A stretch of DNA of 64,000 nucleotides. Source: Thermoguttaceae bacterium. Its GTDB lineage: Bacteria > Planctomycetota > Planctomycetia > Pirellulales > Thermoguttaceae. Under the pieces are notes generated by a model that saw nothing but the letters and a program-made list of their open reading frames with translations, was not told the DNA's origin and ran no database searches. Below are positions 2,725 through 56,056 of this stretch, in pieces. The stretch covers positions 1 through 64,000 of the forward strand of contig JAFQUP010000005.1 of NCBI GenBank assembly GCA_017408405.1, read 5' to 3'. Each line of letters opens with the position of its first letter. Positions within the stretch are counted from its first letter, which is position 1. The position numbers and the translations under genes were made by a program.

Positions 2725-3366
2725 TTAAACTTCCGCGAAATCGTCACCTTTCCGGCGTTTCGCTTTTCGCCGCAAGCGTTTTTCCTCCAGACGTCTTTGC
2801 CTTTCCTGCTCCTCCTGCTCTTCATTAACGGGACCGTAAAGCGCGTCAAAAATGGCAAAAAGATTCAAAAGCCCCGCCATTGCCGTCATGAGAGTTCCAA
2901 CCTCAAATCGACGATTCAGTTTCTTTCTGATATTGTCGATGGAATTATCATTCTCTGAATAAATCGGTCGTCCCGGCGTAACCTTCAGCGGCGGTGCCAT
3001 CAAACCATTCCAAAGCGGATCTTCTCCGTCAGGATCATGAAAATACTGAATCAGTGCCGGAAAAGCGGGAACTCCAACCCAAACCTGCGCCAGATAGTAA
3101 TAACGCATATCTCGATCCGCCCCGGGACTGTTTCTCATCGCAACGTAAACGCAGCGTGCCAGTCCGCACTTTCCGCTGGACAGCGCGGCTCCGAAAAAGA
3201 AAAGCCCAAGAATGCACACTGCGTAAACAAGCGCTTTTGCTTTTCTCCCCTGGTAAAGATGCCCCAATCCCGGCACAAGCCAGGCCAGCCAGCACGCGAT
3301 ATACGGATCACGCAGCTGAATCTCATCCGTTTTTGTCCTATCTTTTGATTTATCTTTATCTCTCAT
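2725..3366 (-). CDS. DUF6677-like planctomycete membrane protein
   Basis: A 213-residue protein. A charged N-terminus (MRDKDKSKDRTKTDEIQLRD) precedes a PYIACWLAWLVPGLGHLYQG segment typical of small membrane proteins with a P-G-x-G-H-x-Y/F-x-G signature. A second helix follows (AVCILGLFFFGAAL), then a loop with a YYLAQVWVGVPAFPALIQ helix, a third or fourth helix near residue 160 (MTAMAGLLNLFAIFDALYG), and a very basic tail (KRLRRKAKRRKGDD). The whole resembles the family annotated as DUF6677 in Planctomycetes; that assignment is from memory. Function unknown. It is the first gene of the run leading to trkA. Confidence 0.75.
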   Translation of the reverse strand: MRDKDKSKDRTKTDEIQLRDPYIACWLAWLVPGLGHLYQGRKAKALVYAVCILGLFFFGAALSSGKCGLARCVYVAMRNSPGADRDMRYYYLAQVWVGVPAFPALIQYFHDPDGEDPLWNGLMAPPLKVTPGRPIYSENDNSIDNIRKKLNRRFEVGTLMTAMAGLLNLFAIFDALYGPVNEEQEEQERQRRLEEKRLRRKAKRRKGDDFAEV

Positions 3367-3697
3367 GGAATCGTGTCTTTTATGAAAACAGACCTCAAAA
3401 TAAAATGGGCACGTGAAAATATTTCTGTACTTTCCACGTTTTTAAACATTATACCCGATAGAGCCTCAAAATGGAAGGACCACCCCAAAGAAAGATAAGC
3501 CCCTTCACAAAATATTTTCAATCTCCTACTAAAATAAATTACCAAATCCCGACCATTCTGACGATTATCCTTTAATAAAATTTCAAATCAAACGAAATAT
3601 TTTTCCCTTTTTATCTTTTTTTCTCATAAAATTCCAAAAATTTTACCAGATTTTAAAAAAACTGATTCAAAAAAGCTCAGAAAACGCCTGCGGGGGG

Positions 3698-3726
3698 TTG
3701 CATTTTTTCAGGCAAATTGATATAAT
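3698..3726 (+). promoter_or_regulatory. strong sigma-70 promoter for the 3.7 kb RNA
   Basis: TTGCAT (3698-3703), a 17-base spacer and TATAAT (3721-3726). This is the best consensus promoter seen in the window and lies about 350 bases ahead of the next coding start. The expected transcript start is near 3733. Confidence 0.75.
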
Positions 3727-3732
3727 ACTAAA

Positions 3733-3937
3733 TCTGTTATGCTGGATTTTTTCGCGAACTCAAAAATTCCCGAGGTCTCAATCCCGGAATACTTCTGATT
3801 ACGCGAAAAAACAGCTCCCTGAACTCAGGGGACAGTCAGGAACAGGATTTTTCATTCCGGCGCGTGTTTCCCTTAATTTACGTTTCCGTGAAAATGGGCA
3901 TTCCCCATCGCCGGGACAACCCGGATAAATGCCTTTT
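3733..3937 (+). ncRNA. candidate structured small RNA (about 205 nt)
   Basis: A non-coding stretch framed by a consensus promoter and a terminator hairpin. Stem 1 is TTTTTTCGCG (3747-3756) with CGCGAAAAAA (3802-3811), extended after a GA bulge by GCTG (3741-3744) with CAGC (3812-3815). It encloses an inner ATTCC/GGAAT pairing (3766-3770/3786-3790). Stem 2 is CCCTG-AACT-CAGGG (3817-3830). Stem 3 is the terminator. No frame of useful length is open. It does not match the conserved cores of tmRNA, SRP RNA or RNase P RNA that I know, and the stems are sequential rather than the single long rod of 6S RNA. It could be a trans-acting small RNA, or a leader that attenuates the gene at 4074. Confidence 0.55.
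3897..3937 (+). terminator. terminator of the candidate small RNA
   Basis: GGCATT (3897-3902) pairs with AATGCC (3928-3933), and inside it CCGGG (3911-3915) pairs with CCCGG (3920-3924) around ACAA. The stem is followed directly by TTTT. It ends the transcript started at 3733 well before the next gene, although read-through into 4074 is possible. Confidence 0.6.
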
Positions 3938-4073
3938 AACAGACATACGGCGTTTCAAAAAATGTTCGTTTCCTGGGCCTGCTAAAATTTGACAGATCAG
4001 AATTTTGACAGAGAAGACCCTTCATTTCCTCTCTGTCGGGTAATATTTCAGTTTTTAACACCGGAATTTAACT

Positions 4074-6077
4074 ATGTCCACATTCAGCGTTTTTCGTAGA
4101 AACAAGAAAATGTCGCTTGCCGTACTCGGCGTTTTGACGATGCTTTCCTTTGTGTTTATTCCTACTCTTGAGCAGTGCAACCGAAATTTCCTTCCGGGAA
4201 AACAGACCGTTTTTGTTTCCAAAATGTTCGGAAACCTGACTGGAAACGAATTTGATCTCATTCGTATGCAGCAGAGCGCAGTCTACGAAGTCCTGATGCA
4301 GGGGGCTTTCCAGGGACTCGACGCACAGTCCGTCATGTCGACCTGGCTTAAAGCCCGATTCGCCGAAAAAATGGGGTTTGTCGTTGGTGACAGCGAAATT
4401 CGCGAAATGATTCGGAACAATTTCAAATCCGCCGAGGAGTACAAATCGGCTCTGGACACCTACCGTATTGTCGAACTCACTTTTGAAGAAGGCCTGAAAG
4501 AGCTTATTCTCGCAAGCAAATACACCAATTTCTGCCTTGCGGGTATTGGACAGCAGATGAATATGCAGGGAATGCCCTTCGCGATGCCCGCGTTCCCGCC
4601 AACCATTGAACAGCAGTGGAATTACTTCTGCGCTCTCAACCGCAGCGCTACGCTGGAAGTCGCTGCCGTCAAAGCGGAAGATTATCTCACCAAAGTCGCC
4701 AATCCCACCGACCTGGAGATCGCGGATTATTTCGAGGCACACAAAGACAAACTCGCCAACGCGGAAGCAGGTATCATCGGTTTCAAAAAACCGGCCAAAG
4801 TTAAAGTCCATTACTTCGCTTTCGATAAACCGATGAACGCGCCGACTCCGGATACCCTGGAAGCTCCCCTGAACGCTGATGATTTGGCGGACTCCATTAA
4901 TCTCGAAGACGCTCCGGCTCTCGCTCCTGAAGCCGCTCCCGCTCCTGAAGCCGCTCCCGCTCCTGAAGCCGCGCCCGCTCCTGAAGCCGCGCCCGCTCCT
5001 GAAGCCGCTCCCGCTCCTGAAGCCGCGCCCGCTACTGAAGCCGCTCCCGCTCCTGAAGCCGCGCCCGCTCCTGAAGCCGCTCCGGCCCCTGAAGCCGCGC
5101 CCGCTACTGAAGCCGCTCCGGCCCCTGAAGCCGCTCCCGCTGCCGCGTTGAATAACGAAAATCCTTTCCGTCTCGTCGCGGACGAAACTGTCGTGACGGA
5201 ACCCGCCCCGGCAGAAAACACGACTCCGGAAGAACAATTCGACATTAAAGTTTTTGCCAAACTGGTTCAGTCGGATGTTTCTTCGTACAAAACCGCGCTG
5301 AATGAATATCGTTTCAATAAGAAGGAAGGTCAGGAAGAACCCAAACTCACTTTCAGCGACGAAACGAAAGCCTACGCGGATAAATACTCGCTGGATTACG
5401 TCGAGCTGGACATGATGGACGTCAATGCTCTCGCGGAACAGCCGATCGCGCAGGCAATGGGCTTCAATGAAGTCATGATGAAGAAAATCTTCACGTGCGT
5501 CGAGGCGGAAGATCTTCGCGCGAATTATGTGGTGTGGAAATCCGAAGTAGAAGACGCCGCTGTCGCGGAATTAACGGATGAAGTTAAAAAAGTCGTCGCG
5601 GAAACCTGGAAACTTGAAAAAGCCAAGGAACTTGCCGCCTCTGCCGCCGCCGACATGGCCAAAGCCGCTGCCGAGAGCAAAACGCTGACCAATCCAATCA
5701 CGGTTGAAAATTTCGCGCAGTACGCGATGACCGCTCAGGGACCGATGCCGACAGATCTGGCTCTCTACGAAGATCAGCTGAACAATATTACGGAAGAATT
5801 CCGCGCAAACGTCTTCAAGATGGTTCCGGGCGAAGTAAAAGCCATGGGTAACCGTAATCGTTCGATTCAGTATGTCGTTCTTCTCAAGAGTTATGCTCCT
5901 GATGACGCGGAACTTCGCGCGATGTTCCAGAATATCAAAGAAAACCCGCAGTATTCTCAGTCCATGTTCATGATGGGCAACTACGAAACGATCAACGCCA
6001 TTCAGCGTTGGGAAATGAGCGTGTTTGAAGACGCGGGAGCTTCTTTTGTTGAAAGCAGCGATCCCTACGCGGAATGA
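4074..6077 (+). CDS. SurA/PpiD-like secreted or membrane-anchored protein with an Ala-Pro-Glu repeat
   Basis: A 667-residue protein. A short basic N-terminus and a single hydrophobic segment (residues 12-28, MSLAVLGVLTMLSFVFI) look like a signal anchor, as in PpiD. Residues 40-170 resemble the SurA/PpiD N-terminal chaperone domain (helical, with AEKMGFVVGDSEIREMIRNN). Residues 284-355 are twelve copies of a six-residue A-P-E-A-A-P unit. The rest is helical, with a PpiD-like tail. I see no clear parvulin (rotamase) domain, so catalytic isomerase activity is doubtful and a chaperone role is an inference. A terminator follows at 6110. The start has only a weak ribosome site (GGAA), as is common here. 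Confidence 0.75.
   Translation: MSTFSVFRRNKKMSLAVLGVLTMLSFVFIPTLEQCNRNFLPGKQTVFVSKMFGNLTGNEFDLIRMQQSAVYEVLMQGAFQGLDAQSVMSTWLKARFAEKMGFVVGDSEIREMIRNNFKSAEEYKSALDTYRIVELTFEEGLKELILASKYTNFCLAGIGQQMNMQGMPFAMPAFPPTIEQQWNYFCALNRSATLEVAAVKAEDYLTKVANPTDLEIADYFEAHKDKLANAEAGIIGFKKPAKVKVHYFAFDKPMNAPTPDTLEAPLNADDLADSINLEDAPALAPEAAPAPEAAPAPEAAPAPEAAPAPEAAPAPEAAPATEAAPAPEAAPAPEAAPAPEAAPATEAAPAPEAAPAAALNNENPFRLVADETVVTEPAPAENTTPEEQFDIKVFAKLVQSDVSSYKTALNEYRFNKKEGQEEPKLTFSDETKAYADKYSLDYVELDMMDVNALAEQPIAQAMGFNEVMMKKIFTCVEAEDLRANYVVWKSEVEDAAVAELTDEVKKVVAETWKLEKAKELAASAAADMAKAAAESKTLTNPITVENFAQYAMTAQGPMPTDLALYEDQLNNITEEFRANVFKMVPGEVKAMGNRNRSIQYVVLLKSYAPDDAELRAMFQNIKENPQYSQSMFMMGNYETINAIQRWEMSVFEDAGASFVESSDPYAE
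4923..5138 (+). repeat. 12 x 18-bp coding tandem repeat
   Basis: Twelve uninterrupted in-frame units of the type GCTCCTGAAGCCGCTCCC, encoding Ala-Pro-Glu-Ala-Ala-Pro. Two units carry Thr for Pro (GCTACT). Otherwise the differences are silent third-base changes (CTCCC, CGCCC, CTCCG). The near identity at DNA level points to recent expansion, and copy number probably varies between strains. Confidence 0.95.
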
Positions 6078-7498: not shown

Positions 7499-10453
7499 TC
7501 ATGGATGAAGAGAAATCGGAAACGTTTTGCGGACGGAACGCTGAGGAACGGGATTCTCCGGATCGCGCCGATTAAAGAAAGAATCGTAATACGGCGCATT
7601 CGCGTCAACCCAGGTCACCAGCTGAATCCACTCCTCCTCCGTCATCTTTGAACGTACTTTTTCCGCGTGCTGCGGCTCATCCAACAGTTGGCGAATCAGT
7701 CGGCTTTTGCTTGAACCAAACTGCCTCGGCTCGGAAATACTCGCTCCTGAATGTTTATTTGAGACGGAAACCATCAGCATTTCCTCCTCCGTCGAAACCA
7801 TTGAGCCGCTTTTTTTACCGTGCGGGAAAAGACTTGAATAGGAACGCATCATTCCTGTCTCCGGGTCAATTTCACGGCTCAAATCAAACCGCGCGGCAGG
7901 CGCGCCCGGTCCATCAGGATTTTCCGCGCTGTGACAGGCAACGCAATGCCGGTCAAAAATCGGCTGAATATGCGTTTCATACCCTAAAAGATTTTCACTT
8001 CCCCATGCCGGTTCCTCCGGTGTTGACGGCGGCCTGCGAAACGCTTTGGCCAGAGAACCTGGTTTCGGCGCCACGACCCGCGCCCGCGTTTCGTGGCACC
8101 CAATGCAGCCGCGGGATTCTCCCGTCTCAAGCGTGATGTGGCTGCGCATTCGGCGAATTTCAAGATGATCTTTATCCAGTAACTGGAAATAAACCGACAT
8201 ATTGGCCGGCAGATAAAACCAGCACGAACCGTCATCTTCCACCGGAACTGTCCCAATTTCACGTACCGGAGCCCAGGACCAGAAACCAAAGATTTGTTCC
8301 CAGGCATTTCCCGGTGCCCAGCGCATCGCTCCAATCTGGTCGTCCATCGGCCAGCCCACTCGCTGCATAATGCGTAAATACTTCGCTTTTCCCTGTTCCG
8401 ACTTCGGCAAACCCACGTTCACATCCGAAACGTAACAAATCGGATGCGGAAATTCCGTATTTACGGTCAAATTCTCTTTTTCAGAATTACTTCCGCCTGA
8501 CAGAATACGCCCATCCGCGATTTCATACGGTTTTTTACGCGGTTTTACGGGAGTCGCAAAATCACACGAAAGAATTCTGTCACGATGAATCAGCTCTCGA
8601 TTGCCATAAACATCCACAAGATAAATCGCGAACTGCGTATCGCCGCCCATTCGCCCGTCATGTCCTGGAACGCAAGCACTCCATGAAGCCAGAAACGCCG
8701 TTTCGGAAACAGGATACGGCCCGGAATAGCGTCCGACGCTATCGATTAATCCGCCCTGCGGTACCGTATTCTGAACAGAAGGCCCCTCTCCCGTAGTAAT
8801 ACGCGGCGTAAGAGTAAACAGTCTGCTTTGATCATTCGGTCCGCCAAGAAGGTCAAAAAGGACCAGCTGACCGTAAGCCAAGGTATGGTGCCCGGTAGCT
8901 ACCGCGACGTAACGGTTCGAGTTGGGAATATCCCGAACATCACGCAGGCCCCACGGCGTGTTAAAGTGCTGCTTGAAAGCGGCTTCCGCGTACGTACCGT
9001 CCGGCCGAATCGTCCAGAACGCATGAACTTCCGTGAAATGCCTTTCCTGGTACTCCCACCGGGTATACCCAATCAGACCATTGGAAAGCGCGTGCGGATA
9101 GCGGTCAATGTCTTTATTGTCGCTAAGCATCCGAATTCCACTCCCATCCGCTTCGCACCGATAAAGATTAATGACAGAATGGTCCGCGCGAAAATTCCCG
9201 CACTCACTACTGCGAGAAGAACGGTCTGACGCGAAAATGATTGAGCCATCCGAAGCATACGTCGGTTCAAAATCCCCCCAATACGGATCTGACGTAATCT
9301 GACGCAAACCGCTCCCGTCAAGACTCACTTCGTAGAGATGAATTGGGGGAGTCTGCGGACGAAGCTCGAAAAACCAGTGCGCGTCATTCGTATGCGTCGG
9401 TTTCGGTAACGGCCAAACCGGCTGCTGAGCGTATCCGAAAACCACTCGTTTTCCATCCCAATGGAGATCCGTCCCGTGAACGTGTCCTGGCCCAAGCTGG
9501 CCATTCAGGATCCCAGTAACAGGATCTTCCGGATCAAAACCCGTCTTCAGGCAAAGATCTCCTCCCGGTTTATGCGTCCAAGGGTACTGAGACCCAGTAA
9601 TATTTCGCAATCCATGAGCGGAATGACGTTTCGTGAAAAGGATCTGATCAAAATCAAGATCCGGATTCAAAAGAACCACCTTCCGTAACGCGCAGCGAAC
9701 TTTCGTAAAAAGCTGACGCGCTTCAAGCATATCTTCCGTCTTCTGAAGTTCCTCCGTAAGTTTCTCCGCTTCGGCAAAAAGCGTTTTTATTTCCTGCCTC
9801 TTTTCTTCAGTCAGTTTTGGAGACTCAAGAATTTCCTGGTACATTCCGCCCGCGCGCTGCAGAAACTTTTGTCCACTTCCGCGCAGAGAAGCCAAATTAT
9901 GCTGAATTCCATGCGTCCCGGCGATACGCCAATAATCCAATTCCGGAAACCGTTCCGCCGGAAATGAAAGCCACTTTGAAAACCATTGCGGCTTCTCCCG
10001 AAGCTCTTCATTCCAAGGAACAGTTTCTGAGGAATTTTCCCATCCCGTTCGAATGGAAATTGCCCAATCAGCATACGAAACAGCAACCGGGTCAGGACTT
10101 TCAAGAAGCTCTGAAGCCAGCTCACAGAGCGAATCGTTCCACTTCTTAAAAGTAAAAATTTTCCAGAGAATCTCGGCAGCCAGACCTTCCGCAAGCACAT
10201 TTCCGTTTTTTGTTCCCTCCTCTTTCAACGTTCTCAGCGCGCATGCTCCAAAATCATCTTCCTCCGCGCAGCGTTTGGCAAAATCCAAAACCAGCTCTGG
10301 AGAAGTCGGCTCCTCGGCTGCTGAAAGCAGTGCTTTCGCTAAAAGCGAATCAACGCAGGAATCAGCAGCAAAAAGAATTTTTTCTGAAAAAAACAAACAG
10401 ATCGAAAAAATCGTCAAATAGATTAATGCGACTGGTATAGAGCGGATTCTCAT
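7499..10453 (-). CDS. HzsA-related two-haem cytochrome with PD40 beta-propeller
   Basis: A 984-residue secreted protein: signal segment at residues 6-29 (VALIYLTIFSICLFFSEKIL, then FAAD), a helical region to about 280, TolB/PD40-type propeller blades (SDGSIIFASDRSS near 405) and a C-terminal cytochrome c part. There are two CxxCH haem sites, C783-C786-H787 (CIGCH) and C837-C840-H841 (CVACH). This layout matches the planctomycete family named after the hydrazine synthase alpha subunit. Such proteins are widespread in non-anammox planctomycetes, so hydrazine synthesis is not implied. It ends with a helical tail typical of planctomycete cytochromes (KMTEEEWIQLVTWVDANAPY). It is transcribed alone. 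Its redox partner and substrate are unknown. Confidence 0.88.
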   Translation of the reverse strand: MRIRSIPVALIYLTIFSICLFFSEKILFAADSCVDSLLAKALLSAAEEPTSPELVLDFAKRCAEEDDFGACALRTLKEEGTKNGNVLAEGLAAEILWKIFTFKKWNDSLCELASELLESPDPVAVSYADWAISIRTGWENSSETVPWNEELREKPQWFSKWLSFPAERFPELDYWRIAGTHGIQHNLASLRGSGQKFLQRAGGMYQEILESPKLTEEKRQEIKTLFAEAEKLTEELQKTEDMLEARQLFTKVRCALRKVVLLNPDLDFDQILFTKRHSAHGLRNITGSQYPWTHKPGGDLCLKTGFDPEDPVTGILNGQLGPGHVHGTDLHWDGKRVVFGYAQQPVWPLPKPTHTNDAHWFFELRPQTPPIHLYEVSLDGSGLRQITSDPYWGDFEPTYASDGSIIFASDRSSRSSECGNFRADHSVINLYRCEADGSGIRMLSDNKDIDRYPHALSNGLIGYTRWEYQERHFTEVHAFWTIRPDGTYAEAAFKQHFNTPWGLRDVRDIPNSNRYVAVATGHHTLAYGQLVLFDLLGGPNDQSRLFTLTPRITTGEGPSVQNTVPQGGLIDSVGRYSGPYPVSETAFLASWSACVPGHDGRMGGDTQFAIYLVDVYGNRELIHRDRILSCDFATPVKPRKKPYEIADGRILSGGSNSEKENLTVNTEFPHPICYVSDVNVGLPKSEQGKAKYLRIMQRVGWPMDDQIGAMRWAPGNAWEQIFGFWSWAPVREIGTVPVEDDGSCWFYLPANMSVYFQLLDKDHLEIRRMRSHITLETGESRGCIGCHETRARVVAPKPGSLAKAFRRPPSTPEEPAWGSENLLGYETHIQPIFDRHCVACHSAENPDGPGAPAARFDLSREIDPETGMMRSYSSLFPHGKKSGSMVSTEEEMLMVSVSNKHSGASISEPRQFGSSKSRLIRQLLDEPQHAEKVRSKMTEEEWIQLVTWVDANAPYYDSFFNRRDPENPVPQRSVRKTFPISLHP

Positions 10454-55711: not shown

Positions 55712-55721
55712 TACCCGCGTT

Positions 55722-55795
55722 GCCCTGATAGCTCAGTTGGTTAGAGCGGTTGACTGTTAATCAATAGGTCCAAGGTTCAAGTCCTTGTTGGGGCG
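55722..55795 (+). tRNA. tRNA-Asn(GTT), copy 1
   Basis: Cloverleaf read by hand: acceptor GCCCTGA/TTGGGGC (with wobbles), D arm GCTC...GAGC, anticodon arm GTTGA-CTGTTAA-TCAAT with anticodon GTT, T arm CAAGG-TTCAAGT-CCTTG, discriminator G. CCA is not encoded. Identical to the next two copies. Confidence 0.95.
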
Positions 55796-55849
55796 TTAGG
55801 GTTCAGAAAGTTGAACCCGCGGCGAAAGCCTTTTTATCATTTTTAATTT
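55796..55849 (+). terminator. tRNA spacer hairpins, copy 1
   Basis: GGGTTCAG-AAAG-TTGAACCC followed by GGC-GAAA-GCC and TTTTT. The second mini-hairpin with its T run is a possible terminator or processing signal. The same pair recurs after copy 2 with a changed but still paired loop-closing base. Confidence 0.5.
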
Positions 55850-55923
55850 GCCCTGATAGCTCAGTTGGTTAGAGCGGTTGACTGTTAATCAATAGGTCCA
55901 AGGTTCAAGTCCTTGTTGGGGCG
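55850..55923 (+). tRNA. tRNA-Asn(GTT), copy 2
   Basis: Same 74-base sequence and fold as copy 1, exactly 128 bases downstream of it. It is followed by a spacer in which the hairpin is GGGTTCAG-GAAA-CTGAACCC, with a G-C pair replacing the G-T of the first spacer. Confidence 0.95.
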
Positions 55924-55977
55924 TTAGGGTTCAGGAAACTGAACCCGTGGCGAAAGCCTTTTTATCATTTTTATTTT

Positions 55978-56051
55978 GCCCTGATAGCTCAGTTGGTTAG
56001 AGCGGTTGACTGTTAATCAATAGGTCCAAGGTTCAAGTCCTTGTTGGGGCG
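55978..56051 (+). tRNA. tRNA-Asn(GTT), copy 3
   Basis: Third identical copy, again 128 bases downstream of the previous one. It is followed by a different, stronger terminator rather than by the spacer hairpin. Confidence 0.95.
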
Positions 56052-56056
56052 TTTTC

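Follow-up and report, generated by a model that had tools for sequence, protein, structure and literature searches.

Long structured 5′ untranslated regions of bacterial mRNAs (the leader/attenuator class) and intergenic small RNAs that possess their own promoter and intrinsic terminator are the described systems closest to the locus analyzed here. The locus resembles the former in its position between a promoter and a start codon, its predicted fold, and a hairpin close to the start codon that is conserved, whereas it lacks a terminator/antiterminator pair and any ligand-binding core known to Rfam, and its large hairpins are not conserved. With the small RNAs it shares a promoter and compact hairpins; in contrast to them, its promoter is shared with an mRNA, its terminator is unconvincing, and it is not conserved. 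Planctomycete promoters are poorly mapped, and literature searches turned up neither this promoter nor this leader. The promoter is comparable to housekeeping sigma-70/SigA-type promoters in possessing two hexamers, a spacing of 16–17 nt, and TATAAT or TAGAAT as the −10 element, but its −35 element is TTGCAT and its conservation reaches past the hexamers at one gene per genome. Based on comparison with related genomes, the region very probably comprises the promoter of a PpiD/SurA-like envelope chaperone gene and the long 5′ untranslated leader of its mRNA.

The window, a stretch of 64,000 nt, comes from a draft assembly of 4.16 Mb split over 217 contigs, and the region under study is the intergenic segment between the divergent genes for a DUF6677 protein and the PpiD/SurA-like protein (Table 1). 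Elsewhere in the window, three tandem tRNA-Asn(gtt) genes of equal score lie exactly 128 bases apart (55721–56052), and a 984-aa protein encoded on the minus strand (7499–10453) matches the middle domain of the hydrazine synthase alpha subunit (E = 3e-20) and, weakly, cytochrome c. Three same-genus relatives are metagenome-assembled planctomycete genomes, two of which are Thermoguttaceae from ruminants (goat reticulum and water deer rectum). A four-protein alignment search of named genomes recovered three of the genus relatives; the single window protein as query found nothing in the named genomes. The downstream protein of the nearest relatives is only about 50% identical to that of the window. 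Many of the comparison genomes are incomplete, and absences among them are weak evidence.

Table 1. Features of the PpiD/SurA-like locus in window coordinates.
Feature	Position	Strand	Basis
DUF6677 protein gene, divergent neighbor	2725..3366	-	Same neighbor in three genus relatives
Promoter conserved ahead of the PpiD/SurA-like gene: G-run, TTGCAT, 17 nt, TATAAT	3690..3726	+	Comparison within genus and order
Lineage-specific portion of the 5′ leader, with the stems described in the first-pass annotation	3733..3985	+	Leader lengths; no homologue elsewhere
Main hairpin of the first-pass annotation	3741..3816	+	Predicted fold; not conserved
Small hairpin CCCTG-AACT-CAGGG, CCCTGAACTCAGGG	3817..3830	+	Predicted fold; not conserved
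Proposed terminator, weak, probably not one	3896..3937	+	Absent from scans; z = −1.55
Conserved leader hairpin TTGACAGAG...CTCTGTCGG	4005..4038	+	Leader alignment and predicted folds, four orthologues
Conserved stretch GGTAATATTTCAGTTTTTAAC...ACCGGAA...ATG, linking the hairpin to the start codon	4039..4076	+	Alignments
PpiD/SurA-like envelope folding-factor gene, 667 aa, Ala-Pro-Glu repeat mid-protein	4074..6077	+	SurA_N_3

The product of the downstream gene shares with PpiD/SurA envelope folding factors a short N-terminal cytoplasmic stretch, a membrane anchor, and a SurA-like N-terminal domain, and differs from them in the large Ala-Pro-Glu repeat in its middle and in family matches that stay under curated cut-offs. 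Every one of the four orthologues gave a SurA_N_3 match (best E = 4e-6), that of the window protein being under the gathering score, and a more distant orthologue matched the NCBIfam peptidylprolyl isomerase model PRK10788 (E = 3e-10), also under its cut-off. The repeat is encoded at 4917–5150, and the orthologous proteins range from 599 to 711 aa in length.

The first-pass annotation had read the region as a structured small RNA with its own strong promoter and terminator, either free or acting as an attenuating leader. The letters are as it described, with TTGCAT at 3698–3703, a gap of 17 nt, and TATAAT at 3721–3726. This promoter is missing from the list of a generic sigma-70 scan because TTGCAT agrees with TTGACA at only three of six positions; judged on comparative evidence, it is far beyond chance. 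In the intergenic alignment of the window with three genus relatives, the same promoter (GGGGGG-TTGCA-N-TATAAT) occurs with identical spacing in 4/4 sequences, and the GGGGGG-TTGCA-N16/17-TATAAT layout lies ahead of the PpiD/SurA-like gene in seven of the eight genus genomes. A genome-wide search with GGGG-TTGCA-N17-19-TATAAT returned one site per genome in G000, G002, G006, and G007 (the window's own among the four), each preceding the orthologous gene, and the reversed control pattern gave zero matches in these four genomes. The promoter is also present ahead of the orthologue in G003, the fifth and more distant genus genome, and before the orthologous gene in G001 and G004 in a TACAAT form. 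No such promoter was found in the eighth genus genome, G005, which counts against the leader reading. The transcript would be expected to start near 3733. The promoter itself is therefore retained, being kept across relatives, whereas its assignment to a stand-alone small RNA is not, because it is shared with the downstream gene.

Outside the genus, a close variant, TTGG(G/C)ATTGCATTT-N14-TAGAAT, was found to be near-invariant, with a single site per genome, across three of the order's families, and the TTGG(G/C)ATTGCATTT part extends the conservation at these loci outside the hexamers. When 22 orthologues from outside the genus, each with upstream DNA that could be read, were tested for a promoter of the TTGCAT/TAGAAT type, nine matched all 12 hexamer positions, compared with typically 8–9 positions in shuffles. 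Among 119 family genomes, 12 carry TGGNATTGCATTT-N14-TAGAAT in exact form, at one site each (reversed control, 0), and with up to two mismatches allowed it was still the sole site in 8/8 such genomes that were searched again. A slightly looser pattern was found in 37 of 296 order genomes, again at one site each (control, 0), and 28 of these genomes belong to two other families; most order genomes do not carry the exact pattern, which is uninformative about looser forms of the promoter. At all 41 inspected loci (L106–L117 and L119–L147; 40 checked by script and L146 by eye), the start codon of the PpiD-like gene lies just downstream of the site. The patterns were drawn up after the first alignments had been inspected, and the matches in other families are the independent part of this evidence. 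On these genome comparisons, the depth of conservation of one promoter at a single gene is the unexpected part of the analysis.

The promoter is conserved before the same gene while the other neighbors change. The divergent pair of DUF6677 and PpiD-like genes is retained in three genus relatives, and the neighbor on the opposite side in 15 inspected order loci resembles the topoisomerase I gene (topA), not DUF6677, its identity having been checked in one locus. Because the neighbor on the other side differs in this way, the promoter travels with the PpiD-like gene. In L111, L115, L128, and similar loci, the leaders between the promoter and the PpiD-like ATG share CATTACT-N-GGCTTGTCAAG, the opposite strand of which reads TTGACA-N17/18-TAATG. 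This is plausibly the divergent topA promoter in the order relatives, and the topA and PpiD-like transcripts would thus overlap at their 5′ ends.

The distance from the −10 element to the ATG is 347 nt in the window, compared with 180, 139, 120, 98, approximately 93, and 91 nt in relatives, and the stems and terminator of the first-pass annotation sit inside this extra length. Searching 118 other family genomes for the insert gave only short matches at the level of chance, and no homologue. A mobile element or repeat was rejected as its origin, since the insert occurs only once in the genome that carries it and matches nothing in phage and plasmid records. A decayed gene was likewise rejected: the best outside match, in G016 (insert 3739–3776; E = 0.006 per genome), is about what chance would give over 119 genomes, and it falls in the 3′ end of a gene read by eye as alcohol-dehydrogenase-like. 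A 76-aa open reading frame (3698–3928) was also discarded; it has no NCBIfam match and overlaps the promoter.

Both described stems form in the predicted fold, the larger one by pairing of GCTGGATTTTTTCGCG (3741–3756) with CGCGAAAAAACAGC (3802–3815). Folded alone and compared with shuffles, the main hairpin, which was chosen because it looked good, gave z = −3.2 (p = 0.005). The whole claimed RNA (3733–3937) exhibited a modest excess of folding (z = −1.96, p = 0.035; z = −1.90 for 3731–3940), its second half was no better than shuffles (z = −1.0), and the whole leader folded better than shuffles (z = −3.0). The stems have no counterpart in the aligned leaders of the relatives and, homologues of the 3733–3937 stems being absent, there was no covariation to score. 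In a search of Rfam 15 at curated gathering and relaxed thresholds, nothing credible was obtained for the window region, in agreement with the earlier statement that it is not tmRNA, SRP RNA, or RNase P RNA, nor did the leaders of the relatives give a match; 6S RNA was rejected, as the whole genome contains no match to it. Of the structured RNA that had been proposed, the main hairpin is predicted to form, the full length is only slightly more folded than expected, and the stems are not conserved in relatives.

The proposed terminator (3897–3937) consists of a 6–7-bp stem, a 27-nt loop that contains a second hairpin, and the tail UUUUAAC. It is not listed by a terminator scan, it failed a test for a stem of seven followed by TTTT, and its folding scored z = −1.55 against shuffles. 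With this large loop and no proper U-tract, it is probably not a terminator, and that part of the first-pass annotation was dropped.

In contrast to the insert, the end of the leader is conserved. The stem of the hairpin at 4005–4038 is kept in three relatives despite differing letters, reading TTGACAG...CTGTCGG in three species and TTGGCGG...CCGTCAG in G006, where pairing is retained via one change on both sides. The following stretch (4039–4076), together with the first codons, shows 87–88% identity to G007 and G002. In the four sequences available, this pattern is suggestive of a structured element at the leader end.

The probable course of events is that RNA polymerase starts near 3733 at the conserved promoter and reads a leader of approximately 340 nt into the gene at 4074, continuing past 3937. 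The first ~250 nt of the leader, including the described hairpins, would have been gained recently in this lineage and probably fold as a spacer, and the last ~70 nt, composed of the conserved hairpin and the sequence up to the ATG, may have a role in setting translation or message stability. As far as sequence comparison can tell, promoter and gene belong together, and the leader is conserved at its end but not in its middle. A conserved promoter followed by a leader that lengthened in this lineage is the simplest account. For a free small RNA, both a terminator and an independent promoter driving the gene would be required, and neither is evident (3937–4073 contains no conserved separate promoter for the PpiD-like gene). 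The folding of the whole leader and the individually strong main hairpin suggest that the insert may not be inert. Given the distance of the relatives, as judged from their downstream proteins, a fast-evolving small RNA could look absent from them, and a young species-specific regulatory hairpin or a processed leader RNA is possible.

A further proposal, which is tentative, is that TTGG(G/C)ATTGCATTT-N14-TAGAAT (GGGGGGTTGCA-N16/17-TATAAT in the genus) could be a dedicated order-wide control site present at a single gene in each genome; a specific activator, repressor, or sigma factor would recognize it and set the level of the PpiD-like chaperone, with the lineage-specific insert adding a layer here. 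It is improbable that the insert is a cis-acting attenuator or riboswitch-like leader, the hairpins of which control read-through into the chaperone gene. Its position in the leader and the folding of the leader as a whole would suit such a role, as would a 19-codon open reading frame (3739–3798, MLDFFANSKIPEVSIPEYF) that begins directly after the expected transcription start, but the hairpins and the small frame are missing from the leaders of the relatives, which manage without them, and there is neither a proper U-tract nor an Rfam match nor a mutually exclusive terminator/antiterminator pair. The frame was likewise rejected as a conserved leader peptide. Less probable again is co-transcription of the leader with the gene, followed by cleavage or premature termination that would give a stable 5′UTR-derived small RNA; the stable 5′ hairpin is in keeping with this and all comparative data are accommodated, but the RNA is not conserved. 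Least probable is a free, terminated small RNA (3733–3937) acting in trans from its own promoter, for which the strong −10 element, the stable main hairpin, the terminator-like end stem, and the lack of a long conserved open reading frame speak, and against which stand the weak terminator, the absence of any homologue or Rfam match, the unconserved stems, and a promoter that belongs to the downstream gene in relatives and reaches it there within 91–180 nt. Of the two alternatives offered by the first-pass annotation, the leader is supported and the free small RNA is not.

Taken as a small RNA, the region would have been one more orphan candidate; comparison instead points to the 5′ end of a chaperone mRNA as its most likely identity, and the promoter is the part worth keeping. 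A near-invariant site at one gene per genome in several planctomycete families would offer a clean handle on the control of envelope protein folding.
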